Assembly: GCA_002049455.2 (NCBI GenBank)
Contig: KV919032.1
Span: 1 to 64,000, forward strand
Direction: 5' to 3'
Origin: Porphyra umbilicalis
Lineage: Eukaryota; Rhodophyta; Bangiophyceae; Bangiales; Bangiaceae
DNA: 64,000 nucleotides
Shown: positions 20,953 to 64,000 of the stretch, piece after piece
How positions within the stretch are numbered: the stretch's first letter is position 1
How the letters are laid out: every line of letters starts with the position of its first letter
Position numbers and translations under genes: made by a program
The notes under the pieces: model-generated
Told to the model about the DNA's origin: nothing
Database searches by the model: none
The model's input: the letters and a program-made list of their open reading frames with translations, nothing else

Positions 20953-21858
20953 GCGGGGTGAGGAGACGAGCGTAGTGGGACTGACCTCAAGTGCACGACG
21001 CGGAGGTTCGAAGCGAGACGCGGTGAATGCTCAAGAGCGGGGGAGGCTTCGGGCGTGTACTGTACTGTATGGAATTTGTAAAAAGGGCTGGGGGACGAGG
21101 ACCGTGACTGCGGATTTAACCAGTACAGTCATTGCGCATTTATATGTGTCCCGCTTATAAGGTACAGTAGTCGCCTCTTCGCCAGGTGCGAAGCAAAACG
21201 TCACACCCCACGAGATGAACTTTGAGAAAAGTGAACAGTCTACGTTGATTGAATCAACACGTGCCCACTGCCACTCGTTTTTTTCTTAATAGGCTTCTTG
21301 CCCGGGATTGCATTGTGCTCCTTGAAGCGGGTACGCCTCCACCACCCCTCCATGAAGAGCTGGCATCTCTCTCTTTTTGGGGGCCGCTGAGGGTCTCATG
21401 GCTCGCGAGAGGGGTTCCACAAAAAGTGCGGAGTCAACAGCACCCAAAACGGCATTGTGCCACCACCCCCTGTGAGGAGCACAGTACTGTCGCGGACATG
21501 ACAGGAACAGAACTGTGGAACAGAGACGAGGCTGCGATGCTCATACGTTTCGCAGTGGTGCTACAGGCGGTGTCCCTGATGTAGTAGTAAAAGAGAGGTA
21601 TGTTCCATACTGAACTGCGCAGCTGCAGCGTCAGCGAAAAATAAAACGACAGGCATGCGCACCTTCCCACCCTGGTGCGCATCCGAGTCTTCCTCCACCT
21701 CCACCCCCCCCGCAACATCAAAGAAACAAAACAGGCCTTCTCCTCCCCAGACCCGCAACGGGTCCAGCCAGGCACCACAACGCTGCGGCGTCAAGCATCC
21801 GCGTGCCTCCTCCCACACCAAAACCCGTCCTGTGACTCTAACCTTCTCGTCACCCCGA
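20953..21858. other. Intergenic, holds a solo candidate omegaRNA-like repeat
   Basis: No gene supported. An AT-richer stretch (TTATATGTG, TTATAAGG) precedes the repeat at 21165-21244, followed by a palindrome TTGATTGAATCAA (21245-21257). The remainder to 21858 shows nothing recognisable. Confidence 0.5.
21165..21244 (-). repeat. Solo copy of the Fanzor 3'-end repeat
   Basis: About 80 bp matching 42542-42620: both begin CAGTAGTC(G/A)CCTCT, share AGGTG(C/A)G(A)AGCAAA, an identical 20-mer starting TCACACCCCACGAG, and end GTGAACAGTCTACG. The hairpin arms differ in sequence but a short stem remains. It may be a MITE-like, nuclease-less relic whose RNA could still be recognised by the Fanzor; that last point is inference. 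Confidence 0.7.
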
Positions 21859-24800
21859 TCACCTCGCTGAACCGTGCGACGAGGAGCTCTCCGCACGCAC
21901 ACTGTGGGATCCCCTTTGGGATCCCGCCGACGGCGAGCGCGGCAGCCGCGCCGATCGGGGCGCGGCAAAAGTGTCCGGAATGGGAGCACCCTCTGTCCGG
22001 GGTAAACCGTACCGCCCACCGGGACCGAGCGCGGGCAAACCACCGCCACCGCTTCCGCCACCCGCCGCTTGTGCTTGTGGTGGCGCCAGTGGGTGTGCCA
22101 GAAAACGGAGTGGCGGCAGAGCGCTGGGCAAGCGCCCTGCCGCGGCCGCCGCCAACGCTGTCGAGACGGGCGGGCGGGCGGGTTCGCCCCGTGGGGAGGT
22201 CGTGGCGCCCGACGACGGTGCTGGGGTCCAGCCAGCCGGGCTCACTCCCGCCCGCCCATACGGCGATTGCACGTCTCCCTCCGTGGCGGCGGCGGGCGCG
22301 TAGGTGCGCGTCGGCGGAGCGACGGCTGTGAAGCGGGGGTAGCTCGCGCGCGGCTGGCCCCCGTCGGGTGCCGCTGCCGCCGCCGCCTCGCGCTGCTGCT
22401 GTTGGGGCCACACGGGGGAAGCGCCCCAGCCAGGGGCAGCACCAGCCGCCGACGCATCAACACCGCTGTTCGGCCAGCCGCCGCCGCCGCCCCCCCGTGG
22501 CCGACGCGGCCGGTCCCGCGGCGGCAGCACTTCTGTGCCCGGCGACGATTCGACGGCCACCGAGGATGACGGGGAGTTGGTAGTGCGCGCCGTTGCAGGC
22601 GCAGGCGGCACGGTCAATGGCGGAAGCCGAGATAGTGGCGTCGGTGGGCCGCTTAACAGCGGGAGCGGAGGTGGCGGCGATGGCCGCACGCCCGCAGGGT
22701 CGTAGCGTGTCGAAGAGAGGACTGGTGCGACAGGTGCGGTAGGGGTGGCGATGGCAGCGGCGCCCGCGGTGCCGGCGCCAGTGGAGACGCCAGCTCCAGG
22801 CCTTCGCATGGGGGACTGGGTGGTCGACGCCCCGCCGCTAGCGCTACCGCTGCCACGACCGTGTACCCCGGCCGGAGCGACCGTCGTCAGCGACGGGGAC
22901 GGGCCGGCGGCGGCGGACCCAGCGACCGCGGCGGCCGCGATCGACGACGGGGCGGGTGTGGCCGACGCCGACCCGCCGTCGATGTCTACCTCGTGGATGA
23001 GGACGGCGACAGCGTCCGCAGGGGTACCCTCCGGCACATCTCCGTCGGTCAAGAAGCTGTAGTGAAGCAATACGGAGCGGGTGGCGTTGGTTGCGTCGTA
23101 CAGCAGCACAACGCGCGACGGCGTCAGAGCAATGCGGATGCATCCAAGGGGACCCTGTCGTGGTGGTGAAAGAGAGGAGGGGGATGGAAAGCGTAGAGGG
23201 GACAACACGTGGCGCGGGGAAGGGTTGGTCAAGTACATGGACCGGCGACCAAGATGATGTCAAGTAGATGGGAAGTGTGGGCACGAGGAACACGGCGAGC
23301 CGCGAAGAGTCACGCGCCGACACCCGTCATGGCGGGGGACACGCGACAGGTGTCAGTCAGATGGCAAATTGGTTCATGGCGGCAGGCAAAGAAGCGGAGC
23401 ACATTGCAAGAATCCATAGAGGTAGCGGTCAAAGGGTTAGGAGGTCTGCGTCGCTCGGACAGATTGACGCTGTGCTGCCACTCCCGCGTGGCGCAGCCGC
23501 CCGCCCACGCTAGGTTGCCGCGCACACGTGGCTAGCCGCTGACCGTGACGCTCAGGGCCGCCTATCAATCGGGCATTTCCCAACGGCGCGCAGGTGTGGC
23601 CGACACGTCGCAAGGCCTCGACCGGCAGCCGTGGCGACGGGGCGGCGGCCGACCGCCGCCGATCATCGCATGATGCCATCCGTCACAGGCCGCCACGCGC
23701 CAGCCCAAACCCGGAGCCTCGTGACAGTTGCCATCGGAGGTCCACGCACGCACGCGACCGATGACGATTGCCGGGTGGGAACCGCCGCTGACGTCACACG
23801 GAAGGTGCATAGCGGGAAGAGCGAGGCGTGGCATGTGCAAGCCAAGGACACCGATCACCTCCCCACCCTCGCTCCGCTTGCGGCAACTAGCCCGTAGTCC
23901 GCACACGCACACCGGGGCATGCGCGGTGCGTAGCGGCGGCAAGAAGACGTGGCAACGCGTGGACGAGCGATGGGAATGGGCGGACCGACGACAAAGCAAG
24001 GCGCCTTCGAACACAATGCGGGCGGACGGAGAGGAATGGACACGTACTGGCTCCACATCGCCGTTGGCAATCATCTTGCGCACGTTAGCCGGATGAGCAA
24101 GGGCCTGCGCGGTCATAAAAGCAGCCAGAAAAGAAAAGAAGGGGAGCAAGAGCAAAAAAGAGAGCGCATCATCATCAGATATCCACAAACGTGTGTGCCG
24201 TGCAGAGCAAACACCGGGAAGGTCAGTAACGGACCCACGAGCGCCGTGCGAAAGGACAAACAGCACAACAAGCGAGAACCAACCGGGAGCGCTACGCCAC
24301 AAATGTACAAACAAACAAGTGGCCGCGCCGTGCCCCTCCCCCCATAATTTATCATACGAACGTACCGAAGCCACAGACTGCGCGTCGGCGGCGCGAAAAA
24401 ACTTGACCGCCGGCTCATTGACGACCAGGACCTGGTGCCACGTTGATCGACGCAATGAGAAAATGACAACGGGTATGCTGAGGTTGCTCAACACCTCGCT
24501 TCTCCCAGCGAGCGACGATGCACTGGTGGCGGCTGATCGGGGCGCGGTGGCGCCCGCCGCAGGGCTGACGGGCCCAACAGGCCCGCCACTGGTGCGGGGG
24601 CTGGCTGGCACGGCGGAGATGTCACCGCCGGTGAGCCCCGGTTGCGTCACCCCCGAGTACCGCAGCATGTCACGAACCATCTCGTTGAGGCGCCGCACCT
24701 CGCTGAGCCCTTCAATGCCGGGCGTCGTCGAGCCGTACTGCAGCCACCAGTCTGACCACGACGCCGCCGTTATTGCCACCGACACAGCCTCGCCAGGTTG

Positions 24801-42311: not shown

Positions 42312-42432
42312 CTCTCGATAGCTCAGTTGGCTCGTACTCACCTGATATGTGAGATCGCAGCAACCAAGAGCGTCTGACTGTAGTGGTATCCTTGACATCA
42401 GAATGTCGCTGGTTCGATTCCGGCTCGAGAGA
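42312..42432 (+). tRNA. tRNA-Tyr(GUA) with two introns, one in the D-loop
   Basis: Acceptor CTCTCGA (42312-42318) pairs with TCGAGAG (42425-42431), discriminator A. D-stem GCTC (42321-42324)/GAGC (42368-42371). Anticodon stem TCTGA (42373-42377)/TCAGA (42398-42402), anticodon GTA at 42380-42382. T-stem GCTGG/CCGGC round TTCGATT. A 13-nt intron (42384-42396) sits at the canonical place after base 37. The D-loop holds an extra block of about 35 nt (42331-42367) with its own hairpin CTCAC/GTGAG. A box TAGCTCAGTTGG and B box GGTTCGATTCC are intact. Ectopic D-arm introns are known from red algal nuclear tRNAs. Confidence 0.88.
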
Positions 42433-42444: not shown

Positions 42445-42541
42445 GTGTGAGGCTTGATTGCATCTCGAAACGGAGCTGTTCTGGTCGACCCGTTCGTACG
42501 CTAACTGCCGTTGTTTTTGGTGACACAGAGGTTAAAGAAAC

Positions 42542-42620
42542 CAGTAGTCACCTCTGGAAGAGGTGAGGAGCAAAGCTCCCTATTCACACCCCACGAGATG
42601 AACCTGGTGAACAGTCTACG
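42542..42620 (-). ncRNA. Candidate Fanzor omegaRNA / element right end
   Basis: Read on the minus strand, this spans the last codons and the stop of the Fanzor gene and continues beyond it. It folds into two consecutive hairpins: GGAGC-TTT-GCTCC and CACCTCT-TCC-AGAGGTG, then ACTACTGG. TnpB and Fanzor guide RNAs typically derive from the 3' end of the nuclease gene. A second copy stands alone at 21165-21244. The guide would be the sequence following about 42541 on the minus strand, toward the tRNA. Function is inference from position, structure and repetition. Confidence 0.55.
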
Positions 42621-45600
42621 ATTACCCGCTCGAGGCGGCTCGAAGACGAGTGGCTGCGTCCCACGGCTGGCGCGGGGCTGGCAGCAGCCATCTGGCCGAC
42701 GTTACTCGTCGCCAGGTCACCGCTTGCCGACGCAGCAGCTGCGTCGTGCGCCCCGTCTGCCACCACACCCAGCGCCTCTACCCGCACCGTTGGCGCCGCC
42801 ACTGGCACGGCCGTGGGGGCCGTCCTCGCCTCCGCGACCGCCGCGTCGGTGACGACAGGTCGGCGCCAACGCTCCCACGACGTGGGTGAACACCGCGTCC
42901 ACCCGTAGCCGGCCTCGTAGGTACCCGCGTCGATCGCAGCCGCGTGCCGCACCGCCTGTACAGGGTCTCCCTGGGGTGGCGCGCGTGACACGGTGTACCC
43001 CCGGATGTGGGGGTAGATGCTCCGACCCCGCATGCTCTTGATGGCAATCTTGGACATGTTGCGCGCCGCGTTGGTGTCTCGCCCGACGTACGTCGCGGGA
43101 CACGCGACGTTGGTGCACAGCTTGACCCCCCACAGCGCCAGCGGGTCGGTCCCAAACGCCCACCTGCCGTGAGCCGCAATCGCCTGCAGCACCTTTGTCC
43201 GCACCGCCTCTGCGTGCTCCTTGGCGCGCTGGGCAGCCGCACCGTCGCGTGGACCCGACCGACTGCCGGTCGTCACACCCCGTCGCGCGCGCCGGCCGCC
43301 GCGGAGGGGCGAGGCGCGCTTGGCCGCCGACGCCGACGCGCGATGCGCGCAGCTGCTTGCCGCCTTGAGGGGCGTCAGGTCGACCGGCGAGTCGGGCGAC
43401 ACGTACGTGTTGCACAAGCCGTGACCGCACTCGGCGCACGTCTGGCTCGTATTGTGCTCGTCCACGTACACGAGGTGCACGTGTTTGGCCATGCGCCGCA
43501 CGAGGTCGACGCTGCCGGCGCGCGGCCGACACCACCCAATGGCCAGCACCGCCTTGGTGCCGTCCACCGTGCGCCGCAGGAGCCCACCCGTCATGCGGCG
43601 GGCCAACTTTGCCGCGTACCGGTTGCGCTGGATGAGGGCGTGCAGGCGCGCCTTTCGCCGGCCCGACGTCGCGGCCGCCCCGTACGCCGCCTGATAGGCG
43701 TCTGTGTAGGTGCGGGCGATGCGCGCAGTGGCCGCCACCAGCCACGCGCCCCACGAAGCGACTTTCAGGGAGCACCCGGCCGTCAGTGACCCGCGCGACA
43801 CGTCGGGATTGGTCGCCGCCCACGCCGCCACCGCTGCCGCCTCGGCGCGCCTCGTCATACCGGCGCCCGTCGCCTCGCGGTACGCGCCTTTGGAGACGAC
43901 CAGCGTCGCCCCCGCCGGCGGAGCGCGCGCGCGCGGTCTCGTGGTCGTGGCCGCGCGCCGGAGGGCGGCGCACAACACCCGCAAGCGGTCTGTCGACGGC
44001 AGCGGCGTGCCAGGCACACCAGGCTGCGGGGGCTCTGTCGGCGCACCGGCGGCGGCCGCAGCCGCCGCGCGCTTTGCGTTGCGCGTCGCCGCCGCCGCCC
44101 GTTTCGCGGTGCGCGCCGCGCTGTGCCAGACGCGCGCAGCGTGTCGGTGGCCCCCGACCGACAGGGCGTGCCACGCCGTCTCTGCGTTCGCTGCCGCCTC
44201 AGCCTTGGCGCCTGCGTTGGCGGCCGCGTCGGTCGACGCTTTGAACAGGGCCGCCTCGCCCATCCACACACACACGTGGTTGGGGAGGCGCCACGGTTGG
44301 ACGCCGCCGTCGTTGACCGCGGCGTGTGCGAGCGCACGCAGGCGCGTCAGCAGCGGCCGCCGGCCGTCGGGGCCGCTCGTCCCCCGCTTGCGTGCGACCT
44401 CTTTCCGCTGCGCGGGCGTCAGCCACTCATCGCCGTATGCCGGCTGCGTGTACCGCGGCCGCTTGGGCGGGTCGGGGGGGGGGGGGGGGGGCAGCGCAGC
44501 AGCCGGCTGCGTCGGTGCGTCCTCCAAAGGCGGCACAGACGCCTGTGCCGCCGGTGTGGCCGCCGGCGGGCCCCCCACCAGAGCTGTACGACTCTGCTTT
44601 GGGGGAGATCCCTCCGCCCCGGTCGACGCGCCGAGCGCGCCACGGCCGCGCTTTTTGGTCGTCCCGCACACCGCGTCACCGCCGCCGACGGGTAGGCCCG
44701 CCGCGGTGGTCTTGGCCGCACAAACAATCTGGGCCACCGTTGCACGCAGCGTGTCGACGGTCGGCAGTAACCGACCGCTGCGCCGCACGTGGCACTCTGC
44801 AGCTGCGGTCGCGGCCATGGCCGCCCGCGCGAGCTCGTCGGCCGCAACCCGCAGCGCCCGATACGCCCGGTACGCGTGCAGGTGCGGTGCCGGTGAGAGC
44901 GCAAACGGCACTGCGCCGGGGCAGTAGGCAGCGACGATGGACGCGACGCCCGGGTCCCACCCGACAAAGACGAGCGCCTTGACAGCGTCGGGCGCAAACG
45001 CCATGCGGTCGAGCTGCGTCCGCACGCTCGCCGTCTCGGTCGGACCCCCCCCCCGCGACCGTCACTGGCCGCCCTGCGGCGCGCCCGCCGAGCGGCCGCT
45101 GTCGACGCTGCAGTGGCGGGGTGTCGTATCGTAAAGTGCACGCCGACGCCGTCCGACACAATGGAGGGGCCAACGACCGTCGAGGCGTGGATGATGCCCG
45201 CGCGGCGGAGCAGCGCCTGCACGACCAAACCGTCGGGCGTCTGTGGTGGGATTGAACCCCCGTGGACCGCCAGGCGCTTGCGGAGCAGCGCGCCGCTGAC
45301 GCGCGCGTACCCGGTGCACGTAGCAACTCGGCCAGGTGACGTGTCGGCCGCCTCGATGCCGGCGCCGACGCACAGGGCCTGGGCATAGTGCAGCAACGGG
45401 TAGACGTGCAGCGGTCGCTGTCGCAGGGCCAATGTGTCTAGGTGCAGCAGCGAGCGCCGCCGACCGCCGCCATCCGTGTACACGAGGACGGTGTCGTAGG
45501 CCAGCGCCGCGGCGGCCGCCATGGCAGCCCCATGCGCCGCAGACACTTTGCCCGCCGGCCACTTGAACGACGGCGGGCGCGTGCCGTCGGCGGCTTGCAG

Positions 45601-48033
45601 GCCGGCAACGAGGACCGCAATCAGTGCCGCGCGGGGGTGCCCGTCTGACCCGCCCGGGGTCTGCGGGTAGACCGCGAGGACGATGCACTTTGCAATGGCC
45701 TTGACCGCCGACGTGACGTGCGTCACATAGTGGTTTTCAAACGACGTTGCGACGGTCGCCCAGCCGCCCGTGTCGGGCGGACTCGGCAGCAGCGTGCTGC
45801 ACGGCAGCTGCTCTGGCTCGGTTACGGCCGCCGCCACTGCCGCAGACGCGGCAACAAAGGCAGTGTAATCGCCGTCGCCGGTTGCCGCCTTGACGTCCGC
45901 ACGTGGCTTGGCTTGCGCGCGCCGCCCCGAGCAAGAGACACACGCCCGCCGGGGGGCGCCGTCAAACGCGTGGACACCGCGACACGAGACGGTCGAGGCA
46001 ACCTGCTTCCACGCAAGCCCGAAGCTGCCCGTCAGCGACGCCGGCACGACCGCCATAAACTCATCGAGCGTGCGTCGGCCGCCGCCATCACCACCCGCAC
46101 CCAACCCGCCGCCACCACCGTCGACGTGCTCGAGCAGGTACTGCATCGTGCCGTCCATAACAATGGAGACGAGGCGCAGATGCTGCGTCTGCGCCGTTGC
46201 CAACTCTGTCAGCGCAGCCGCACCCGCCACCGCATTGGTGTCGGCCTCGGCAGACGCCTCGGTCTTGCGACGAGCCGAGGTGGTCGGCGGGCGTCCGGCT
46301 GGCGGCGGGCAGTTTGTGGACGGCGCCGGGAGCCTTCGCCGCCAGACGCCAAAAAACCGGTCGACCGACACGGCCACCGTCGTCGTCACCTCCCCGGTCA
46401 TGCGGTACTGGTCGGCGCACGCCAAGTCGCGGCCGCGGTCCTCATTGTGGTCTGACCAGCCGTGGGTGACGGCACGCAGCGGACACGCTGCGCTGGCGCG
46501 CGTGTGGCCGCGCGCATGGCAGGCACCGCACCTTGTCCGGCCGCTGCCGGCCGCGGCGCCCTTGGCCGCCCCGGCGGCCGCCACACGCGCCGCGTGCGCC
46601 GCCTTGGTGGCCGCGTCGGCTGCACACGTTTTCACATTGTGCCCCGTCGCCCCGCAGCCGCCGCATCGGCGCAGGCGGCCACGCGTGCCGCCGCCGCCGC
46701 TCGCCGGCGCGCCCCCTGCGCCGGCACCCGCGTCGTCGCCCGGGTGGTCCCCCGCGTCGGGGGTTGCCATGGGGATCAAGCCCTTGGCCGCGGACAAGAC
46801 GCTGCTTGCGGCGTGCCGGGCGCGCGCGCGCAGGCGCCGACAGGCGACCACCGCGGCATTGTCGGCGGCTGTCGCAGCGCCGGCGGCAGCGTCTGCCGCG
46901 CTGCCGTCCCCAGGGACGGCAGCGGGTGGTTGGTGCGGCGGCACGGTCACCGCGTCAACGGCTCGCAGCACTGCGGTCGAGGCCGCCTTGGCGTCGCCCA
47001 GCGCTGCCGACGCGTACGACGTGGTGCCCCGCGCGTGCACGGGGTTTGCTGCGAGCAGCTTGGCCTTCAGGGTGCTCGCGTCTCGCAAGGGGCCCACCGG
47101 CCCCACGTCGCCGGCCGCCTCGCACGCGGCGGCGGCGGCGGCGACTTCGACCGTCGCGGACCGCACGGAAGACGCGGCACATTGTCGCCCGGCGTCTACG
47201 TGGCCGCCGGCCTTGATGGCCGCGTCCCCGCCGGTCGCACCCAGACGCGTGACGGCGTCGTCACGGTCGAGGTCCTTGTCGACGGGTCCGTCGACGGGGC
47301 CGTCCCCGCCCTTGCCGTCCCCACCGCCGCTCCCACCAGCTGTCTGTGGGGCGGGGTCGGTCACTAATGCTGACGGGAAGGGCACCCCGCCTGCCACACG
47401 GGGGTCGTTGGGGACACTCGCCGACGGCGCGGGGCGCGCGGGGACGCCCCCCGTTGCTGGTGGGCGACTGTCGGGGGCACCCCCACCCACCCGAGGGAGC
47501 AGACCGCCGTGGTCGCCGCCAATCGCCGAGGCGCGAGTGTCGTCGCCGGGACCGCCCGCGGTACCGACTCTGGTGGTCGCGGCCACGGCCCGTGCGCCAC
47601 CGCCAGCGGTGCCCCCACCCGCGGGCCCGTTGCCGTCTGCCACGCCCGCACCACCGCCCGCCATCATGGCTGACGGCCGCGCCCCGGTGGGGCCGCGACG
47701 CGCTCGCAGCGCCGTCGACGTGCCGGGCGCCTCCTCCTCGTCTGTGGACGACACGTCGTCTGTGTCGGTGCCGGGTGTCGCCCCAATGCCCCCCAGCGGG
47801 ACGGTGCCGCACGCACCGGCGCCGGTACCAGACGACCGACGCGAGTGTTCGCTGCTGGCGACGGACGGGGGTGCGTCCACGCGCATGGCGTCGTTCCGGC
47901 GAGCACGGGCGTGCCCGCCGACACCCGCCGCGTCAGGGACGCGGGGAGTGGGGCCATGTCGAACAAACCCCCGCACACAAGGGTGTGTCGCCTGCCTCAG
48001 AGGCGTACGGGCACTGTCACCCGGGTCGGCCAT
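42584..48033 (-). CDS. Fanzor: eukaryotic TnpB-like RNA-guided nuclease with zinc knuckles
   Basis: Start MADPGDSARTPL at 48033, the only Met near the TATA box at 48270. The N-terminal 400 residues are low-complexity. Two zinc knuckles follow (CX2CX4HX4C and CX2CX4HX6C, about 46670 and 46535), then a TnpB-like helical/WED region (FENHYVTHVTSAVKAIAKCIVLAV). The C-terminal 813 residues carry the split RuvC: RuvC-I LVFVGWDPGVAS (Asp at 44954-44956), the relocated Fanzor-type Glu in YVDEHNTSQTCAECG (43457-43459), a zinc ribbon CAEC...CTNVAC, and RuvC-III GRDTNAARNMSKIAIK (Asp 43076-43078). All three catalytic acids are present. The two halves are in different frames that meet at a C10 run (45045-45054), likely an indel in the run or a slip site. 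Total about 1,800 residues, far longer than usual Fanzors (about 500-900). Confidence 0.85.
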
Positions 48034-48264
48034 ACCCCAACGTACCGCGCGCCGTACAGGCGGGGGGCACCACGGCGGGTGACACCGTCTACCGGCTGGG
48101 GTGGGGGAGGGGGGCAGGCGGGGGCGTGCGGCTGCAGCCGCGCTCAACAAGGGGGGGGCGGCGCGCACGAGACGCCCCGCGCCGCCGGCACGCGCGGCGG
48201 CGGGGGGCGTCCGCCCAGTGTGCGCTGTTGCGCCTGCTGGTGCCGCCCATCGGTGCCGGTCAGT

Positions 48265-48280
48265 GGCGCTTTTATAGGCA
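48265..48280 (-). promoter_or_regulatory. TATA box of the Fanzor gene
   Basis: TGCCTATAAAAGCGCC on the minus strand, about 240 bp before ATG 48033; the same GCCTATAAAAG core recurs in the 123-bp repeats and in neighbouring gene promoters. Confidence 0.7.
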
Positions 48281-49511
48281 CGCGTACGGGTGCCGGCGGC
48301 ACGAGCGACATGGTAGACGCTGCGCCACGACACGGTACGGACCGTCACGGTGTGACCGACGGGGGCGCGGCCCCCATTGCGCTGCTGCGCAGCGGTGTGC
48401 CGAGATCGGCGCGGTGCGCCACCAGCCGCGCGCACGCACGTGGTCTTTGCGCGGCGCTGGGGCGGCTGCAGGCCCCACACGGCACGCCTATGCGGGGTGC
48501 CCGATGCGGCGCGTCGCCCAAACAGAGGCAGCGGCGGCCGACCGGCGTGCGTGACAGCGTGCACGCGACAGGGGCGCCACGGGCGCGTTGGGTGTGGCTA
48601 CAAACGAGTACATTGTGTCACACATGGGACCGACATTCCGCGGTCACGGCGCTCGCGAATGGTCGGAAGTTGTGGAAAGCGCCTTGTATGTCTGTAAGCG
48701 CGCGTCTATCGGTGCGCCACCAGAGATCGTCATATCGCCATATATATTGTCTATTACCCCTCGCAAAACTTGACCCTCACAGGCCTCCAACTCACATGGC
48801 AGGACAGTGCGGCCGTTCCATCAGCCGGATGCATCGGCCGTGCCAGACAACACCCACCACGCCCGTTGTGGCAGGGTGGCGCTGCAGCCACCACCTCCCA
48901 CCGCTGCGTTCAGTGACTGGTACTGCACGGCACTTGGCCCTGGGTAGGCGCGCCCGCGGGGGGTTCGTGAGCAGGACATGGCATGCTGGTTAGGTGGGGG
49001 GGGGGGTGGTAGGAAGTATGGGCTGGCGCCGGGAGGCTCTGGGATGCTCGTGCGCGTGTGGTGGGGCCGTTCGCACCGTGCGGTAGGATCGACGGCTGCG
49101 CCCGTCGTCGTGCCCGTGCTGTGGTGGTACCATCATTCCCCGTTGATCAGACACCCCTGCGGGGTTGCTGCCACACCCGTTTGAGACGGCTACTTTTTCC
49201 CAGGTCGTCGCCGGAAGGGCCCTGCCTGGTACAACCAATGGCGGTTGGGGTGTGCAGCAGTCGCCAGACCGCCTGGCATGGAGCGAGAAAGTGCCTCGAT
49301 CGCCAGTCTGTGGGCGTCCATCGGCCGCCTCGCTTGAGTGGTATGTGTCTGTTGGCGACGAGACACGCGGCGGGTACTGGCTACTGTGGTGCACCGAAAA
49401 AGGGGGGTGGGGGGTGCGTGCACTGCACAAAGCGCGCCCCCACCGGCAAGGGCCCAAACAGCGCCGTCGCGTCGTCCGGGGCAGACGGGGTGTCCGCCAC
49501 GTGAGGCCCCA
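48281..49511. other. Intergenic upstream of Fanzor
   Basis: No supported gene; overlapping ORFs lack motifs. An AT-rich patch (CATATCGCCATATATATTG, about 48728-48746) is the only notable composition change. Confidence 0.45.
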
Positions 49512-50126
49512 TGGGGCCGCGCGCCCCGCGCGCACGGGCCCGACGTGTGCCCGCGCGCGCCTATAAAAGGGGTGCGTCGCGGCCCGCAGCTGCGTCGCGT
49601 GGGTGCCAGGCAGTCGCGTCGCCGGGTGGCTGCATCGCGCCGCGCGCCCCGCGGGCGGGGGCCCGACGTGCGCCCGCGCGCGCCTATAAAAGGGGTGCGT
49701 CGCGGCCCGCAGCTGCGTCGCGTGGGTGCCAGGCAGTCGCGTCGCCGGGTGGCTGCATCGCGCCGCGCGCCCCGCGGGCGGGGGCCCGACGTGCGCCCGC
49801 GCGCGCCTATAAAAGGGGTGCGTCGCGGCCCGCAGCTGCGTCGCGTGGGTGCCAGGCATTCGCGTCGCCGGGTGGCTGCACCGCGCCGCGCGCCCCGCGG
49901 GCGGGGGCCCGACGTGCGCCCGCGCGCGCCTATAAAAGGGGTGCGTCGCGACCCGCCGCTGCGTCGCGTGGGTGCCAGGCAGTCGCGTCGCCGGGTGGCT
50001 GCATCGCGCCGCGCGCCCCGCGGGCGGGGGCCCGACGTGCGCCCGCGCGCGCCTATAAAAGGGGTGCGTCGCGGCCCGCAGCTGCGTCGCGTGGGTGCCA
50101 GGCAGTCGCGTCGCCGGGTGGCTGCA
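49512..50126 (+). repeat. Five tandem 123-bp units, each with a TATA box
   Basis: CCTATAAAAGGGG starts at 49560, 49683, 49806, 49929 and 50052, exactly 123 bp apart; the units are nearly identical (a few substitutions). Because 123 is a multiple of three, ORFs on both strands run through the array, but they are repeats, not genes. The array is followed by a 26-bp tandem duplication (CCTGCGGCGCACC...) at 50127-50174. The TATA core faces the plus strand, yet no convincing plus-strand gene starts within 300 bp. Confidence 0.9.
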
Positions 50127-50174
50127 CCTGCGGCGCACCGGCTCCTGCTGCCCCTGCGGCGCACCAGCTCCTGG

Positions 50175-50850
50175 CCCCGTGTCTGGGGCCGGATCGTCCC
50201 TGTCCCTGCGCCCGTGGTGCGGCGGTTGGCGGCGGGGCGACCGGTGCGTGGCCTGATGTTTTTTCTAAAGTACCGTTGTTATCGGATTTCGTTTTTCACA
50301 TTCTGGGTGGCACCCCCCTGACTTGCTCGTACACGCAAGTGTCTGCCAGGGTCGTGCGTCACAGCGACGACATTCGTGATTGACATGGTGCACCCTCGTT
50401 GGGGGTATCTCCCAGTTATATATCACCCTGATATAAAACTGGAGCGTATCGAACCGGATATTGACTGTCCACTGTAGCGCTCATCGAAATATTTGCGTAT
50501 TCCGACCTTCGGAAATCGGTGACAGGCTATGAAACAGAGTGTGCGGTCGAGATTTCGATACACCAAGAAACGGTTGGATCTGTGTACGGTATCGCGGCGC
50601 GACGAACCGTGACCGCGGCGTACGCGTACGACTGGCATTGACGCGAGTGGGTGTCTGCTGCTGCTCTCTCGTCGGTGCCCAACGAGGACTGTGTCACACC
50701 TGCCCGGCGCACTGTCGTACCCCCCCGCAAAAGGCCACATACCGGGTGGCACCGCGGTTCCAGACGGAACGGTCATGTCGATCGGAAATCTTTTCGCATT
50801 CCGTGATTCCATTGGTCCACGTTTGCTACATGGTTATTGCCACCACTCTA
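50175..50850. other. Intergenic after promoter array
   Basis: Only short ORFs; the composition drops in GC. Possibly the remains of a plus-strand gene once driven by the array; nothing recognisable. Confidence 0.4.
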
Positions 50851-52849: not shown

Positions 52850-54186
52850 GGAGACGTCGCCTGGGGCGCGACCTTTTCAAAAGGCGACCCCATTCCCCAG
52901 ACGAGGGTTTCCACAAGAAAAATGACCCCCCCCACCTCGGACGGCCACTCTGGGGCGCCTGCCGCGCACCCACGGGCGGTGGGGCCCTGCACCACAATCC
53001 AATGGAAAACCTGCCAGAGTTGACTCTGGCAATCTCTGAGGTTTTACAGTAGCCTGGGGGGCGACGTTTTCAAAAGGCGACCCCATTCCCCAGAGCAGGG
53101 TTTCCACAAGAAAAACGACCCCCCCCACCTCGGACGGCCACTCTGGGGCGTCTGCCGCGCACCCACAGCAGGGTTTCCACAAGAAAAACGACCCCCCCCA
53201 CCTCGGACGGCCACTCTGGGGCGTCTGCCGCGCACCCGCGGACAGTGGGGCCCTGCACCACAATCCAATGGAAAACCTGCCAGAGTTGACTCTGGCAATC
53301 TCTGAGGTTTTACAGTAGCCTGGGGGGCGACGTTTTCAAAAGGCGACCCCATTCCCCAGAGCAGGGTTTCCACAAGAAAAACGACCCCCCCCACCTCGGA
53401 CGGCCACTCTGCGGCGTCTGCCGCGCACCCACAGCAGGGTTTCCACAAGAAAAACGACCCCCCCCACCTCGGACGGCCACTCTGGGGCGTCTGCCGCGCA
53501 CCCGCGGACAGTGGGGCCCTGCACCACAATCCAATGGAAAACCTGCCAGAGTTGACTCTGGCAATCTCTGAGGTTTTACAGTAGCCTGGGGGGCGACGTT
53601 TTCAAAAGGCGACCCCATTCCCCAGAGCAGGGTTTCCACAAGAAAAACGACCCCCCCCACCTCGGACGGCCACTCTGGGGCGTCTGCCGCGCACCCGCGG
53701 ACAGTGGGGCCCTGCACCACAATCCAATGGAAAACCTGCCAGAGTTGACTCTGGCAATCTCTGAGGTTTTACAGTAGCCTGGGGGGCGACGTTTTCAAAA
53801 GGCGACCCCATTCCCCAGAGCAGGGTTTCCACAAGAAAAACGACCCCCCCCACCTCGGACGGCCACTCTGGGGCGTCTGCCGCGCACCCGCGGACAGTGG
53901 GGCCCTGCACCACAATCCAATGGAAAACCTGCCAGAGTTGACTCTGGCAATCTCTGAGGTTTTACAGTAGCCTGGGGGGCGACGTTTTCAAAAGGCGACC
54001 CCATTCCCCAGAGCAGGGTTTCCACAAGAAAAACGACCCCCCCCACCTCGGACGGCCACTCTGGGGCGTCTGCCGCGCACCCGCGGACAGTGGGGCCCTG
54101 CACCACAATCCAATGGAAAACCTGCCAGAGTTGACTCTGGCAATCTCTGAGGTTTTACAGTAGCCTGGGGGGCGACGTTTTCAAAA
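52850..54186. repeat. Tandem array, 193/266-bp units
   Basis: The marker CCTGGGGGGCGACG falls at 53053, 53319, 53585, 53778, 53971 and 54164: two 266-bp and three 193-bp units; the longer ones contain a 73-bp internal duplication. A diverged copy starts at about 52853. Each unit holds ATCCAATGGAAAACC and the palindrome CCAGAGTTGACTCTGG. ORFs of 60-160 codons crossing the array are by-products. Confidence 0.9.
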
Positions 54187-55312: not shown

Positions 55313-56230
55313 TCACCCAACTTGGGGCTTGGCCATAGACTCATCCCAGTCGAGAATGCCATTGCGCCACGAGCGGAGGAACTGTTGCCACGAGTCACCG
55401 GAAGTGGGACCGACCCAATACTGCTCCTCTTGGTCCGGGCCCCAACGTTCGAGCCACAACCGAGACCGGCCGACGTCCGACTCTCGGAGGTACGCGTCCG
55501 CAGCGGCCAGTAGAAAGGCACCGCACAAGTTGCCGTGGGTTTGCGGCCCGACGGTGATGCGGTGCACGGGCGTGGCACTGACAAGCGTCTCGACCAGGTG
55601 CTGTCGATCGCCAGCGGCGACCGCCTTGTGCACGCGAAACATGTCGAGAATCCAGGAGCGCACAACGGCAACGACGTAGCGCTCGTGGTCCCACAGCGAG
55701 CGAAACGAGTTGAAGACGAGGAAGTGACACGGTGCGTCGGGAACGGGCGGGGACGTCGGTGGCGGCGCCCACGCTGCCTCGCGGCCACTGTCGTGGGTGC
55801 TCTCCGCCACCGCCGTGTGAAGCACAGGGAGCAGCGCAGGTGGGTTGACGACGACCAAAAGGAACCAGTGATCCTCCATGACGACTGGCAGTAGAATGTG
55901 TGATTGGTCGAAAATGTCGCGGCGCAGGAACTGGTGGAAGTTGGTGCAAAACGGGTGCCACGGATCTGCGGCCCACTGGCCCACGGATGGGGCACGCGAG
56001 CCCGTCTGTCGCTCGCCGCTCTCTCCGCCGAGCATGCGCCCGACGACGGCGCTGTCCACAATCCACGTCGCGGACGAGGTGGCCTTGTCGGCGGAGAGGG
56101 TCAGGAGCGCGGTGAGTAGTGCATTGACAATGTCGTCGGTAAAGTCGCGGCCGAGGAGGACACCGTTGATGATAGAGCGCGGCACGGAGTGACGTGGCCA
56201 AAGAACGATCTTATCAGGAGCGCGCGGCAT
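55313..56230 (-). CDS. Ulp1/C48-like cysteine protease
   Basis: ATG 56230 (MPRAPDKIVLWPRHSVPRS) lies about 170 bp after a TATA box. 305 residues. WIVDSAVVGRML resembles the start of the C48 core. The catalytic series follows in order: EDHWFLLVVVN (His), VFNSFRSLW (Asn/Asp position), GPQTHGNLCGAFLLAAADAY (oxyanion Gln and catalytic Cys). This is the layout of SUMO proteases and adenain-like proteases. The third acid appears as Asn rather than Asp, which some family members tolerate. Such proteases are carried by several DNA transposon groups and by virus-like elements, so it does not by itself decide what the block is. Intronless. Confidence 0.75.
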   Translation of the reverse strand: MPRAPDKIVLWPRHSVPRSIINGVLLGRDFTDDIVNALLTALLTLSADKATSSATWIVDSAVVGRMLGGESGERQTGSRAPSVGQWAADPWHPFCTNFHQFLRRDIFDQSHILLPVVMEDHWFLLVVVNPPALLPVLHTAVAESTHDSGREAAWAPPPTSPPVPDAPCHFLVFNSFRSLWDHERYVVAVVRSWILDMFRVHKAVAAGDRQHLVETLVSATPVHRITVGPQTHGNLCGAFLLAAADAYLRESDVGRSRLWLERWGPDQEEQYWVGPTSGDSWQQFLRSWRNGILDWDESMAKPQVG

Positions 56231-56395
56231 GGCGGCAACCAACGGCAACGACGGGCCGGCACGTGCACTCGACGCTCGGGCACCAACGTGCTGCGGCGGG
56301 CGTCTCCTCTGCACCACGCGTCGCGGGAGTGCACCGCCCGCGGGCTGCCGGCGACAACGGAACGTGCACGGCCACCACCGCCGTGCTTTGTCGAG

Positions 56396-56667: not shown

Positions 56668-59600
56668 TCAGGCCGTCGACGTGGAGGTGAAACTGCCCTC
56701 TGAGCTCGACCCAGATGAGAAGCCCCCTGAGTCGGATGATGAGGAGGTGCTGGAGGAGGATCCCGAGGGGGAGCCACCGGCCTCGCACTCCACATCCTTG
56801 GCGCTCGCCGCACGTTGCCCGTCCGAGTCGGACGACGGCTGCGCTTCGGATGGGAGTAGCCGGACCATCCTCGACAATGTCGCGTCGCGGGGCGGTGCGG
56901 TCATCCCAGCCAACGCCGTGTGGGCACGCAGCGTCGGCCTCGCCGGCTTGGGGGAGGGCACGACGCGGGCGGTGGTCGCTTCCAACTCCCCAGGGTCAAA
57001 CGCCCGCAGGCTGACGTGCGCCTGGGCCGCCGCTGTCAGCGCCTCCATGGCAATCGTCATGCCCGGGGCACGCTCCGAGCCGCTGCCCCCGTCCACAGCC
57101 CGATGGCCACGAACGCCTCCCTGTGCCAGGTGCAGCTCGTACACAGCGCAGGCTCCGCCTCGCAGCGGAGGCGCGTCTGGTAGGTTGGGATGCGTGCGCC
57201 GCAAGACCATGGTGACCACGTCGTCGGCTTCGACCCCCGAGTACATGACCGCGACGCGCGCCACGACCTCCCGACTGGCGTACGCGTAGTGGAGGTCCTG
57301 GCGGATGAACGTGACGGAGAAGGGGGGCAGGACCGCAAGTGTAGACGACGCCCCCCACTCAATGACATGCGCGTTGGTCGCCGTGACGAGCCCACAAAGT
57401 TGCCGTCTGCTCGTACGGTCGAAAACTCTGGCGCCACGATTGGGTCCGGCTCCCCATAGTAGAAGAACGGACTGCAAACCGCGTCAGAGGCCGTCACTCG
57501 CACGTGACCACCCCCGGCCTCGACGCGGCGTTCTTCGACCACGGGTCGGGCGTCCTCCTGCTCGTGTGCGGCACGGAACGCCGCCGTCAAGTGGTGAAAG
57601 ATGCACGCAATCAGGAGGTCCACCTTGGCGGCGGCAGGCCGGTCCTTGTCTGCCACACGGCGGCTGTAGTGTATGGTGACAAAGGCGTCCGACGCCGATC
57701 GAGAAGCGGCGGTCAACACCTTGACGTCCCCCTCCGACTTGGTCGTCGCGCCAGCCAGCAACGTCCACAGAGCAGCCGCGACGTCGTGACCGACGGCCCC
57801 CATGGTCGTCATGTCTGCGAGGTGGTCCAGCGTGACCCACCCTCGACTGAACAGCAGGGTCGCCCTCGCACTGAAAAAAGCGGCCGCCGCGACCCCGCCC
57901 TCAACGCGTTCGTGTGTGAGCTCCGCCGGGCGCTCGCCAACGGCAGTCAGCGGTCGCATCCGCTGCAGCAGGCCCCACGTCCGGACGCGCCCGTCGACGG
58001 CCAGCCAAAACGGGCGACGGACCGCCAGCCTCGCACGGTGGTTCGTCGGCACGAGCACACTGAAAGCGGGAGTTGTCAGCACACCCATGAGCGACGGACC
58101 ATCGCGCTCGGCAGCGGACGCAACCGCGCTGGCACCACACGCCCACTCGCGGCGAAACCAGTTGGCGTCCTCTGCGCTCGCCGTGGGGTGCGCGTACACG
58201 TGCACAGGGACACCGCTCGCACCTCGAGGGCGACGGTGCCGCACACCCCCCGTGCGTGTCGTCGGGAGAGTGGCATCCGTCGCTCGGCTGCCACGGGTCG
58301 AGCGGGTCACACGCGCCGCTTGTTCGTTTCGAAGAGGGGAACGCGCCCGACCGGGTGTGACTTCGACAACCTCGGGAGACCGCCCGCGCCGCGTCGCACC
58401 TTTGTCAGACACTGGTGGACGCCTCTTTCGCTGAGCAGCACCAGGCGTGGTGCGAGCAGAGGCACGTCGAGAACCGCGTGACAGCGGCGACGCGCCATCC
58501 GGCGACACAGTCGCGCGCCCCGCGGCCGACGTGGCAAGCGCCGTCGCGGGTGTCGTGGGAGGCTCGCCACCATTCGCACCGTCACCTGCCCGGGCACGTC
58601 CGCCTCGGTCGTCCACGTGAGAGTTCCCGGTGGGGTCCAGGCCGTGTGCGTCCATCCGGCCAGCGGGCCCGTCCCCATCACCGTCGCCAGAGGCGCCACC
58701 GTCAGACACGAGGGGGGTAGCGGGCGGGCCGCCGCCACCAGAGCCCCCACCGTCCCCACCACCGTCGCCAGAGGCCGCACCATCAGCCGCACGGGGTCCG
58801 GTGCCGGCGGGCCCGTCCCCATCACCGTCGCCAGAGGTGGCACCGTCAGACACGAGGGGGGTACCGTGCGGGCCGTCGCCACCAGAGCCCCCACCGTCCC
58901 CACCACCGTCGCCAGAGGCCGCACCGTCAGCCGCACGGGGTCCGGTGCCGGCGGGCCCGTCCCCATCACCGTCGCCAGAGGTGGCACCGTCAGACAGGTG
59001 GGGGGTACCGGGCGGGCCGTCGCCACCAGCGGCATCCGCCAAACCCCACTGGCCGGCACCCTCGAGAGCACGACACGCAAGCTCGTCCCCGGTTGGTACA
59101 CGAACCACAGGTAGTGGCCCTGACGACGTCTTTTGAAAAAGGTCCATAAAGCTCGGCGAGTCCTCGCCGTCAAGGTGCGCAAGAGCCTCGTCAACGTCCG
59201 GGCCGAGTGCGGGCGCATTGGCATCCTCTTCGTCGGCCGCGTCTGCGTCGGAGGCGTATGGCAGACCAGGGACGACCCACGGCACAATGGGCGGGTGCTC
59301 GGAATCCTGCCGGAGCGCGTCCACAAGGTCGGCGCGCAAGGCATTCCCTTGGGCCTGAAACAGCCCGTCACTGTCCTCCTCAACAGATGACGGCGGGGGA
59401 GCGAGGTGGCGAAACGTGGACACCAAACGGTCCTCAACCGACGGGTACAGCACATCGGCAGCAGGCCCCGGATGCAGCGCCAACACCTCCTCCAGCGATC
59501 TCCCGGCGATCACCGCAGCTGCCGTCATGCCTCGCACAAAGGGAACAAAGGAGTCGCCAATACGCTTGGCTAGGGCGACCGTCAGGGTGGGGTGATCGAC

Positions 59601-59678
59601 CCCCTCCCAGGGTCGAGGCGTGTCGCCATCAATACCCATGTGCACGTCGTACCACGCCTCAAACACGCGCAGCAGCAC
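56668..59678 (-). CDS. Large unknown protein with Asp/Gly-rich repeats
   Basis: Minus-strand coding of about 1,000 residues; the coding signal does not keep one frame throughout. The first part has VFEAWYDVHMGIDGDTPRPW and VALAKRIGDSFVPFVRGM. Residues about 220-340 contain three 48-residue repeats rich in Gly and Asp (144-bp units at about 58660-59090). Then a basic Arg-rich stretch, then a globular region (VPVHVYAHPTASAEDANWF, FWLAVDGRVRTWGLLQRM, AAKVDLLIACIFHHL). The end is a long Ser-rich acidic tail (GSSSSTSSSSDSGG). It overlaps the ParB-like gene upstream by 97 bp and has no TATA of its own, so the two may be one transcription unit or one protein. No family recognised. Confidence 0.5.
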
Positions 59679-60469
59679 GCAGCGAGCTTGGTCCCGCTCG
59701 TCGGCCGACGAGTCGGGGCGAGAGGCTTGCGCAGGCTTGGGGCGCCCAACACCGTCAGACTGTAGCGGTAGTGAGGGTAGGTGGGTGGCTCAAAGCGGCC
59801 CTCCTCCAGAGTCTTTCCCAGAAACTGTAGCGCCCTGGGGCTCTCCAGAAAGGTAAAGACAGCCTTGACCAGCGTCTCAACAGCCTTACGTCGAGCAGCA
59901 AATGTCCTCGGCACCTCCCTGAAAGAGACGTACAGCTGCTTGGTGGTGTACCCAGCGGCATACTCGGCTGCACTGCTAATGCTGAGCGCAATGGCAGTCT
60001 CCGCCGACCAGGCTCGGAAGAACATGAGGTTGGTGGTGATGCTGTCGTACGCCGTCGTGCGTGCGATGTTGTGGCCTTGATCGTTGTACTCCATCGCCAG
60101 AAGGGCGCGCATGGAGTCACAGAGCGAAACGCTCTGCTCATCTTGGTCGACAATGACGAGGGCGCGAATGATGTCCTCTGCACCCAAGATACCCTCCCGC
60201 AGCGCTTGAAGGATCGCGCTCACACGATGACCGCCGTCGCATGGAATGAAGAAGGACGGGTCCTCACGGTCGAGGCACAAGATCGGTGCATGCGCCTGTG
60301 GCAATGTGCGATATCGTCGAATGGTTGCCAGGATGTCACGAACCAATGAGCTGGACTGACGGCGGGGCATCAGATCCGGAATGCGCAGGCTTCCGACCTT
60401 CACATCGCGCAAGACAGTGGGGGGCAGGGGCACCGACCCGTGGGCCGCGCCAGCCAGAGACGCCGCCAT
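59582..60469 (-). CDS. ParB/Srx-like domain protein
   Basis: ATG 60469 (GTCATGGCGGCG), about 135 bp after a TATA box. The core LCLDREDPSFFIPCDGGHRVSAILQAL has the strand-helix and the DGGHR box of ParB/sulfiredoxin-like domains (compare DGxHRL/GxxR motifs), preceded by a helix with SSLVRDILATIRRYR. A helical part follows (IARTTAYDSITTNLMFFRAW, AIALSISSAAEYAAGYTTKQ). ParB-like domains act as CTPases/DNA-binding partition proteins or as nucleases/kinase-like enzymes in mobile elements; which applies here cannot be told. The tail after about 59770 may belong to the overlapping downstream frame. Confidence 0.6.
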   Translation of the reverse strand: MAASLAGAAHGSVPLPPTVLRDVKVGSLRIPDLMPRRQSSSLVRDILATIRRYRTLPQAHAPILCLDREDPSFFIPCDGGHRVSAILQALREGILGAEDIIRALVIVDQDEQSVSLCDSMRALLAMEYNDQGHNIARTTAYDSITTNLMFFRAWSAETAIALSISSAAEYAAGYTTKQLYVSFREVPRTFAARRKAVETLVKAVFTFLESPRALQFLGKTLEEGRFEPPTYPHYRYSLTVLGAPSLRKPLAPTRRPTSGTKLAACCCACLRRGTTCTWVLMATRLDPGRGSITPP

Positions 60470-60554
60470 GACACTCTCAGCGTCGCACGGTTGAGGGGGT
60501 GGGGGGGTTGAGAAGCACGACGCCGTCTCGGGGTGTGACAGGTGCGGCACCACG

Positions 60555-60860
60555 GGGTCCGGTCCGTAACCCGACTGCGCGGGCACGCACAGGGTCCAGG
60601 TTTTATATAGGCCGGTGGCACACCAGTGGTCGGTCGGCACACCACGCTCAAGCAGTGTCCGCAACCCCCCCACGTCCCGACCCTCCCCCACGCGGCCACC
60701 GCGGCTGCGGCCTGGGGACACCCCTGCGCGTCACCAGCGGGTCCGGTCCGTAACCCGACTGCGCGGGCACGCACAGGGTCCAGGTCTTATATAGGCCTGT
60801 GGCACACCAGTGGTCGGTCGGCACACCACGCTCAAGCAGTGTCCGCAACACCCCCACGAC
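60555..60860 (-). promoter_or_regulatory. Tandemly duplicated TATA promoter (184-bp unit)
   Basis: CCTATATAAAACCTGG (minus, 60601-60612 area) and CCTATATAAGACCTGG (60785-60796) lie in two near-identical copies of a unit offset by exactly 184 bp; the proximal one serves the ParB-like gene. Confidence 0.8.
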
Positions 60861-60904: not shown

Positions 60905-61677
60905 GGTGGTGACCCCAGCCCCCTCAAGGACGCCGGTGGGGCCCCCTCAGAGCACCCCCCCCCAGATGGGTCGAAGTACCACAATCCTATGGAGAACCTG
61001 CCAGAGTTGACTCTAGCCATACCGTTGGTTTTATGGTAGCCTGGTGGGCTACCAACATGATAACCTGCAGAATCAATCACCCCGACGTGGCTACCGGGGG
61101 GCGGCCTCCCCAGCCCCCTCAAGGACGCCGGTGGGGCCCCCTCAGAGCACCCCCCCCGAGATGGGTCGCAGTACCACAATCATATGGAAAACCTGCCAGA
61201 GTTGACTCTAGCAATACCGTTGGTTTTATGGTAGCCTGGTGGGCTACCAAAATGATAACTTGCAGAATCAACCACCCCGACGTGGCTACCGGGGGGCGGC
61301 CTCCCCAGCCCCCCCAGGAGGCCGGTGGGGCCCCCTCAGAGCACCCCCCCCCAGATGGGTCGAAGTACCACAATCCTATGGAGAACCTGCCAGAGTTGAC
61401 TCTAGCCATACCGTTGGTTTTATGGTAGCCTGGTGGGCTACCAACATGATAACCTGCAGAATCAACCACCCCGACGTGGCTACCGGGGGGCGGCCTCCCC
61501 AGCCCCCTCAAGGACGCCGGTGGTGCCCCCTCAGAGCACCCCCCCCCAGATGGGTCGCAGTACCACAATCCTATGGAAAACCTGCCAGAGTTGACTCTAC
61601 CAATACCGTTGGTTTTATGGTAGCCTGGTGGGCTACCATCATGAGAACTTGCAGAATCAACCACCCCGACGTGGCTA
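60905..61677. repeat. Tandem array, four units of about 195 bp
   Basis: GGTAGCC-TGGT-GGGCTACC begins at 61035, 61230, 61424 and 61619. Units contain AATCCTATGG(A/G)(A/G)AACC and CCAGAGTTGACTCTA, homologous to the 53-kb array, plus an added inverted repeat GGTAGCC/GGGCTACC. Confidence 0.9.
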
Positions 61678-62383: not shown

Positions 62384-62589
62384 AATAGAACTGTCCGTCA
62401 CTTGTGCCATGCTCCGCTTTCAGGCTTTCCACAGAGGGTCTTGAGACATGAGAACATGGGGGTTGTTGTGAGGGGTTTGTCATATGACAGCAAAGACACT
62501 GAACAACAACTGCCCATCAGTTCAACAGGTAGGGGCCGAGGAAGCCCCCCACTGTGTCGACAATGTGTGGCATTATGGTCCAAAATATA

Positions 62590-63410
62590 TCTTTGTGGCC
62601 CCCCGGGCCACCCCAAAACCGTCCATATTGCCAGAGTCAACTCTTGTAGGTTTTCCATTGGATTGTGGTGCACAGGCACCTCCAGGGGGGGTCGTCCAGA
62701 CGGCGCCTGGCGCTCCCGGGAGGGGCGGTCAGCCGCCCACACCATCTTCCTGGGTGCCGGGGGGGCCCCCCGCGTGTGTGCGTGGTGTGGGACGCGTTTC
62801 AAAATATTTCTTTGTGGCCCCCCGGGCCACCCCAAAACCGTCCATATTGCCAGAGTCAACTCTTGTAGGTTTTCCATTGGATTGTGGTGCACAAGCACCT
62901 TCAGGGGGGGGTCGTCCAGACGGCGCCTGGCGCTCCCGGGAGGGGCGGTCAGCCGCCCACACCATCTTCCTGGGTGCCGGGGGGCCCCCCCGCGTGTGTG
63001 CGTGGTGTGGGACGCGTTTCAAAATATTTCTTTGTGGCCCCCCGGGCCACCCCAAAACCGTCCATATTGCCAGAGTCAACTCTTGTAGGTTTTCCATTGG
63101 ATTGTGGTGCACAAGCACCTTCAGGGGGGGGTCGTCCAGACGGCGCCTGGCGCTCCCGGGAGGGGCGGTCAGCCGCCCACACCACCTACGTGGGTGCCGG
63201 GGGGGCCCCCCCGCGTGTGTGCGTGGTGTGGGACGCGTTTCAAAATATTTCTTTGTGGCCCCCCGGGCCACCCCAAAACCGTCCATATTGCCAGAGTCAA
63301 CTCTTGTGGGTTTTCCATTGGATTGTGGTGCACAAGCACCTTCAGGGGGGGGTCGTCCAGACGGCGCCTGGCGCTCCCGGGAGGGGCGGTCAGCCGCCCA
63401 CACCCACATA
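62590..63410. repeat. Tandem array, four units of about 220 bp, inverted family member
   Basis: GGTTTTCCATTGG at 62649, 62868, 63088 and 63309. Each unit carries ATTGCCAGAGTCAACTCTTG and GGATTGTGGTGCAC, the reverse complement of the core in the 53-kb and 61-kb arrays, placed upstream of the plus-strand methyltransferase-like gene. Confidence 0.9.
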
Positions 63411-63434
63411 CGGCAGGGGGGCCACGCCATCATC

Positions 63435-64000
63435 ATGTGTTCCTTCTCCCAGTTTTCGGACCTGTCCAAGACCCTCGAATCGTACAAGGCCCCGACGACG
63501 AACGAGTCGCTGTGGGCGGTGGACGCGGGCCCCATGGCCTTTATTTGTTCGACGCCGACGGGCGCGCCGCGAAGCACCACCACCCTCGCCAACCACATGT
63601 TTGTGGCCGTACACGCGACGCGGCGCGGCGCGGGGTTGGCTGGCCACCGCATGGTCAACTACCGCGTGTTTGACAGTGACGTGTCGAGTATGCCCGGCAA
63701 CAGGAACGTGTACAACCATGTGACGCAGCCGACGGGTCGCGAGGTCGTCTATGCGGGCGACGGCATCCTGCGCCCCGAGCAGAAGCCGGTCAGCCTCTTG
63801 CGCGAGCTCATTCGACGCTTCACCAAACCGAGCGACGTCGTGTTGGACCTGTTTGCGGGCTCCTTTTCAACGGCGGACGCGTGCATCCAGACGCGGCGCC
63901 ACAGTTGGAGCTGTGACAAGGACCCCGTGGCGGTGCGGTTTGGCAAGCGACGCGTCTTTTCGTCTTTTGACCGCTTTTTGTCCTCGACGCACGACGGTCG
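63435..64000 (+). CDS. DNA methyltransferase-like protein (partial, runs off window)
   Basis: ATG 63435 opens MCSFSQFSDLSKTLESYKAP and the frame stays open to the window end. Near its end: LRPEQKPVSLLRELIRRF, then DVVLDLFAGSFSTADACIQT, then WSCDKDPVAVRFGKRRV. This is the C-terminal KP...LLxxLI and D-x-F-x-G-S SAM-binding signature of permuted (beta-class) N4/N6 amino-methyltransferases. The DPPY-type catalytic motif expected upstream is not clear; AVDAGPMAFICSTP occupies the place, so the enzyme may be divergent or inactive. It is separated from the ParB-like gene by two repeat arrays and is transcribed the other way. Confidence 0.65.
   Translation, partial: MCSFSQFSDLSKTLESYKAPTTNESLWAVDAGPMAFICSTPTGAPRSTTTLANHMFVAVHATRRGAGLAGHRMVNYRVFDSDVSSMPGNRNVYNHVTQPTGREVVYAGDGILRPEQKPVSLLRELIRRFTKPSDVVLDLFAGSFSTADACIQTRRHSWSCDKDPVAVRFGKRRVFSSFDRFLSSTHDG

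Follow-up and report, generated by a model that had tools for sequence, protein, structure and literature searches.

We identified, in the 64-kb stretch of Porphyra umbilicalis DNA analyzed here (hereafter the window; base composition 67.5% GC), a genuine Fanzor1-type gene that is oversized, bears zinc knuckles and is interrupted in its frame as read, and whose 3′ end, by comparison with published systems, plausibly contains a candidate omegaRNA. The Fanzor1-like protein is encoded on the minus strand, at 48033–42587.

RuvC motifs and zinc ribbon

Three motifs follow one another in the order correct for a RuvC nuclease: GWDPG (44948–44962, minus strand), with the presumed RuvC-I Asp; VDEHNTS (43445–43465, minus strand), with the relocated RuvC Glu and the TS of the zinc ribbon; and GRDTNAARN (43058–43084, minus strand), with the RuvC-III Asp, which is also covered by the PF07282 match. 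The pattern RDxNAAxN has a single occurrence in the six frames of the window, and the relocated Glu aligns with the Glu of the TnpB-like protein L79 (VNEYLTT). In hhalign, GWDPG falls in register with the RuvC-I Asp of TnpB, at 0.7% and E 0.084, which is not significant, so that RuvC-I rests on the motif and its order. A first, sequence-only reading of this DNA had all RuvC acids present: this holds for the relocated Glu and the RuvC-III Asp, and GWDPG is there, with a RuvC-I match that does not reach significance. The D-to-TS spacing is 501 residues, outside the 125–275 of the Bao and Jurka motif, D-X(125,275)-[TS][TS] (PMC3627910). According to Yoon et al. (PMC10711439), DPG and the alternative Glu are marks of the TnpBs ancestral to Fanzors. 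VSDGVGVHF (45133–45159, minus strand) resembles by eye the TDG motif described in the WED domain of Fanzor1 (PMC10711439). The AlphaFold2 model computed from the single sequence, without relatives, was unusable (pLDDT 38.5).

The zinc ribbon announced by the earlier reading was recovered. Its cysteines and TS are present, the pattern [TS][TS]xxCxxC having five matches in the six frames of the window, and PF07282 (TNB zinc ribbon) matches the second frame with 25.6 bits (E 1.4e-5), just missing the Pfam cutoff of 26.3. The ribbon is split by an 87-residue insert (43142–43402, minus strand), recognized by its position and by the rise of the PF07282 score to 36.9 bits (E 4.1e-9) when it is omitted. 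A model of seven phage TnpBs gave 24.2 bits for the trimmed protein and 15.3 for the untrimmed one, as compared with 3.6 for the best of 2,000 shuffles, and hhalign against TnpB yielded 90% and E 1.6e-6 over 22 columns; TnpB-family similarity was thus found in the profile check of the C-terminal part. The NCBIfam TnpB model matched weakly (11.6 bits, E 0.12, cutoff 100).

A search of the PDB with the whole second coding part returned two matches, both unrelated. With a 65-residue zinc-ribbon query, TnpB-like L79 came first, below significance (E 0.064), and half of the 12 matches (6) were TnpB or Cas12 relatives, none of them significant. A profile search of the PDB was built partly from PDB chains, and its top two matches are there by construction. 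No Fanzor chain is named among the matches listed for the second part and the ribbon query, or among the profile's best 60 of 103. Candidate relatives of the RuvC part amounted to 21 stretches in viral_contigs and 108 in genome_contigs, none confirmed, and tblastn of the window with both coding parts gave self matches only and no further Fanzor remnant. Judged from sequence, membership in the relocated-Glu Fanzor/TnpB group is well supported, and Fanzor1 proper, resting on motifs, is likely; the proposed Fanzor identity is sustained by the zinc-ribbon and RuvC-III profile matches together with the DPG, relocated-Glu and SDG motifs.

Gene layout and frame switch

The gene is distributed over two minus-strand open frames, 48597–44422 and 45061–42587. 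The first coding part (45055–48033, minus strand), assigned from its open frame and codon signal, comprises the N-terminal extension and a REC/WED-like region and starts at an ATG at 48033, with an alternative ATG at 47886. The second coding part (42587–45054, minus strand), assigned from its open frame and PF07282, comprises the RuvC and zinc-ribbon regions and is followed by the stop codon at 42584–42586 (minus strand). Frame reading and codon usage place the change of frame at a ten-base C/G homopolymer (45045–45054). In a codon-usage model trained on the RuvC/zinc-ribbon part (44392–42960), the first frame is mostly favored between ~47.8 and 45.1 kb, the second from ~45.04 kb on; the switch falls between ~45085 and 45040, on the homopolymer, and the gene as sequenced therefore consists of two frames. 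This break escaped the sequence-only reading.

Within the first coding part, 46360–46271 is an exception that scores better in another frame (+9.0 versus −3.4). The codon signal is weak upstream of 47.8 kb and uneven from there to ~47.1 kb; both windows that hold a zinc knuckle are negative (−3.2 and −3.3), and the stretch between the two knuckles scores +10.5.

Since the frame switches at a ten-base homopolymer, the gene can be taken as a sequence error, an allele or a pseudogene, and because the window contains 60 C or G runs of at least nine bases, misassembly at this site is a reasonable alternative to mutation. The interruption as read may mean that this Fanzor copy is inactive, or else that the assembly is at fault at the homopolymer.

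N-terminal extension and zinc knuckles

The predicted protein has ~1,815 residues from the ATG at 48033, or ~1,766 from that at 47886, with ~1,025 residues upstream of RuvC-I, the normal REC/WED part included. REC and WED of an ordinary Fanzor1 occupy an estimated ~300–450 residues, so that the extra N terminus perhaps amounts to 550–700 residues; the ~900-residue extension put forward earlier was an overstatement, as it counts the REC/WED common to every Fanzor.

The two CCHC knuckles reported in the same place are real patterns, each with a single match when the 64 kb are translated in six frames. Knuckle 1 (46624–46665, minus strand) fits CX2CX4HX4C, and knuckle 2 (46483–46530, minus strand) deviates with X6 (CX2CX4HX6C) and is the best stretch of a match to PF15288 (CCHC zinc knuckle) that, at 21.4 bits, just misses the cutoff of 22. 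None of 20,000 residue shuffles of a 550-residue stretch contained CX2CX3GHX4C. Under the names "zinc knuckle" and "CCHC," no such Fanzor turned up in the open-licence full-text literature, which is poor in subscription papers.

A repeated module at the 3′ end of the gene

The 3′ end of the gene is repeated elsewhere, as had been noticed from the letters, with one recurrence in the window. The gene-copy module (42542–42620, minus strand), a candidate omegaRNA scaffold delimited by comparison with the solo copy, takes in approximately 12 C-terminal codons, the stop and a further 42 nt downstream, and the solo copy (21165–21244, minus strand), assigned by sequence comparison and tblastn, lies without a Fanzor gene. 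Aligned in the same orientation, the two copies share 61 identities over 86 columns with 13 gaps, for a score of 46.4 bits, as compared with 34.6 bits for the best of 300 dinucleotide shuffles. They have in common an identical 20-nt block (0.00 expected) and an identical 14-nt block, two matches being seen in 4 of 100 shuffles at the looser setting of that search. The local similarity of both copies stops at identical bases, ...GACTACTG, which define a common 3′ edge; from the published layout, the flank that follows (42522–42541, minus strand) is the predicted guide. A difference in length disrupts the reading of the C-terminal codons in the solo copy, and tblastn finds no Fanzor remnant; what the module conserves therefore seems to be nucleic acid and not protein.

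The 20-nt block had no match in viral_contigs or genome_contigs, both of which contain few or no eukaryotes. A 17-nt sub-block occurs in one viral contig (L001), where the rest of the module and PF07282 are absent, and was taken as chance. Four tests for an inverted repeat or left end upstream of the copies (47500–50500 and 21245–23500) scored 14–18, with shuffle means of 17.2–18.4, and within the window the best matches of the predicted guides were perfect over 9–10 nt or reached 88% over 17 nt. A perfect palindrome, GTTGATTCAATCAAC, seen by eye at 21244–21258, abuts the 5′ side of the solo module and is absent at the gene copy.

As RNA, the gene copy folds with a z-score of −2.78 (3 of 200 shuffles as good), its best fold consisting of two hairpins; the solo copy adopts a different fold, with a z-score of −0.99 (32 of 200). 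Both weaken when flanks are included: the gene copy (141 nt) to −1.26 (22 of 200), pairing with the flank taking the place of the second hairpin, and the solo copy to −0.17 (86 of 200). The two clean hairpins described previously are thus the optimum for the gene copy by itself; they do not recur in the solo copy, and the second does not survive the flanks. The best folds of both copies have in common only four closing pairs, GUAG/CUAC, with pair probabilities of 0.96–0.98 and 0.76–0.77 in the two copies. Their consensus fold has an energy of −9.75 kcal/mol, two sequences being too few for covariation, and for the gene copy a common architecture is less favorable by 4.2 kcal/mol. In both copies, the plus-strand reading of the module gives a less stable fold than the minus-strand one. 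Folded as DNA, the gene copy reaches a z-score of −3.31 (0 of 200 shuffles) and the solo copy −0.19 (73 of 200).

Genomic surroundings

The adjoining tRNA gene of the sequence-only reading was found by a local Rfam search at 42312–42432 on the plus strand (RF00005, 46.3 bits, gathering score 29). It is split by insertions in the D-loop and the anticodon loop, its anticodon by eye is GUA (Tyr), and it was missed by ARAGORN and by a whole-window Rfam scan. This intron-split tRNA lies 109 bases past the module and is convergent with the Fanzor gene. In the red alga C. merolae, tRNAs are reported to have introns in the D-, anticodon-, and T-loops, which green algae are said to lack almost entirely (PMC3978253); the split tRNA would thus suit a red-algal origin, without proving it. 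The four other Rfam matches near the gene copy are all far under their gathering scores. Near the solo copy (21000–21400), Rfam matched nothing, tRNA included, and the idea of a tRNA as the common insertion target of both module copies is therefore unsupported.

The left neighbors resemble host genes (EVE, E 1.2e-44; PAP2, E 9.1e-23), and the right side carries tandem arrays and proteins possibly from mobile elements. The array at 49516–50126 consists of a 123-bp unit repeated in tandem five times, the consensus of which contains the TATA-box-like CCTATAAAAGGGG, and arrays with related units are located at 52904–54186, 60913–61677, and 62581–63404, the last in the opposite orientation. An ORF at 55313–56317 (minus strand) is a Ulp1-like C48 protease (PF02902, 22.4 bits, cutoff 20.7), for another at 59582–60721 the matches, DndB (E 0.25) and ParB-like (E 0.022), are weak, and a DNA methylase at 62484–63998 (PF01555, E 8.5e-13; phrog_67, E 4.7e-18) leaves the window at its edge. 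Two ORFs at 8633–11323 and 13380–14825 show weak DUF1280 matches (19.5 and 16.7 bits, both under the cutoff of 25); to the eye the two are similar, and they may be related to transposases.

Discussion

The protein resembles Fanzor1 (SpuFz1, GtFz1, PpFz1, and CMe-1A, the known Fanzor1 family of the red alga Cyanidioschyzon merolae, PMC3627910) in its motif order, DPG, relocated Glu and zinc ribbon and, by eye, in an SDG that recalls TDG, and the locus does so in having a module at the 3′ end of the gene and an ORF-less copy. It differs in the added N terminus with zinc knuckles, in the D-to-TS spacing, in the terminal repeats, which were not found here, and in its size, since the passages on protein length in the literature give mostly 600–700 residues for Fanzor1s (PMC11423790), ~800 for some (PMC10711439) and 638 for SpuFz1 (PMC10432273). 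Inserts in RuvC are also carried by known Fanzor1s (PMC11423790, PMC10711439), such as the RuvC insert FRI of PpFz1, of ~100 residues (PMC11423790), whereas the inserts here are larger and lie in both RuvC and the zinc ribbon. The zinc ribbon and RuvC-III are shared with prokaryotic TnpB (IS200/IS605, IS607), but the seven aligned phage TnpBs have 328–414 residues and the Glu upstream, and in the column of the relocated Glu six of the seven carry Pro and the seventh Arg. In its knuckle patterns the protein is like the CCHC zinc-knuckle proteins of PF15288, with a score just under the Pfam cutoff (21.4 versus 22).

We consider it moderately probable that this is a Fanzor1-type OMEGA locus, that is, an outsized RuvC nuclease gene whose 3′ end doubles as an omegaRNA scaffold with its guide in the flank. 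An omegaRNA is the best reading of the module because its length, position, C-terminal codon overlap, common 3′ edge and ORF-less second copy match published Fanzors, which makes the candidate plausible by analogy: the omegaRNA of SpuFz1 has a 75-nt scaffold and a 14–15 nt guide, SpuFz1 has ORF-less ghost loci with the same right-end region, and the GtFz1 RNA overlaps 17 C-terminal codons (Saito et al., PMC10432273). If expressed, the 3′ end (42542–42620, minus strand) would be the scaffold and the next ~14–20 nt of flank the guide, and the nuclease, once loaded, would cleave DNA with a match to the flank. Such cutting helps the mobile element persist in related TnpB elements and could do the same here, were the locus mobile, and ORF-less copies such as 21165–21244 would supply more guides in trans. 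The most likely role of the knuckles in the added N terminus is nucleic-acid binding, and they may assist recruitment of the omegaRNA. That this arm, retro-element-like, gathers guide RNAs from scattered solo modules, one Fanzor thus serving many guides, is a distinctly doubtful proposal.

Several observations speak against an OMEGA locus: the frame break, the non-significant RuvC-I, the spacing of 501, the weak NCBIfam TnpB score, the lack of a named Fanzor chain among the PDB matches listed, best folds that apart from four closing pairs are not common to both copies, a module seen in two copies, with no other in viral_contigs or genome_contigs (few or no eukaryotes), and the tests for an inverted repeat or left end, which found none. 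The frame change at 45045–45054 and the hairpins that differ between the two module copies would suit a decayed relic, its frame disrupted by a genuine mutation and its protein and guide RNA no longer produced. We regard this as unlikely: the catalytic residues and zinc-ribbon cysteines are intact, no further interruption occurs across ~1,800 codons, and the many C/G runs are the sort of site where assemblies err. The 80-nt module could instead be a transposon end or small repeat recognized as DNA, with no guide RNA, as its two sharp-edged copies, the weak RNA structure common to them and the good DNA fold of the gene copy, not seen in the solo copy, would suggest; its position, however, is exactly that of published Fanzor omegaRNAs, with a C-terminal overlap as in GtFz1 (PMC10432273), and a matching left end was looked for and not found, and we think this account improbable.

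Least credible among these alternatives is that the N-terminal stretch with the knuckles belongs to another gene or is not translated, an ordinary-size Fanzor starting further down. Long open frames are common in this GC-rich DNA, and the codon signal, weak before 47.8 kb and uneven to ~47.1 kb, is negative in both knuckle windows, but a single frame stays open from ~47.8 kb, across both knuckles, as far as the SDG motif and is coding-like in most windows, the stretch between the knuckles (+10.5) among them.

As an outsized Fanzor1-type gene, the locus bears on the tolerance of the Fanzor scaffold to inserts, the predicted protein being more than twice the largest Fanzor size that we found in the published passages cited here, and zinc knuckles joined to a Fanzor were not found described, under those two names, in the open-licence literature. 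If the RNA part is true, the locus predicts exact guide edges and would point to guides from ORF-less loci outside fungi.
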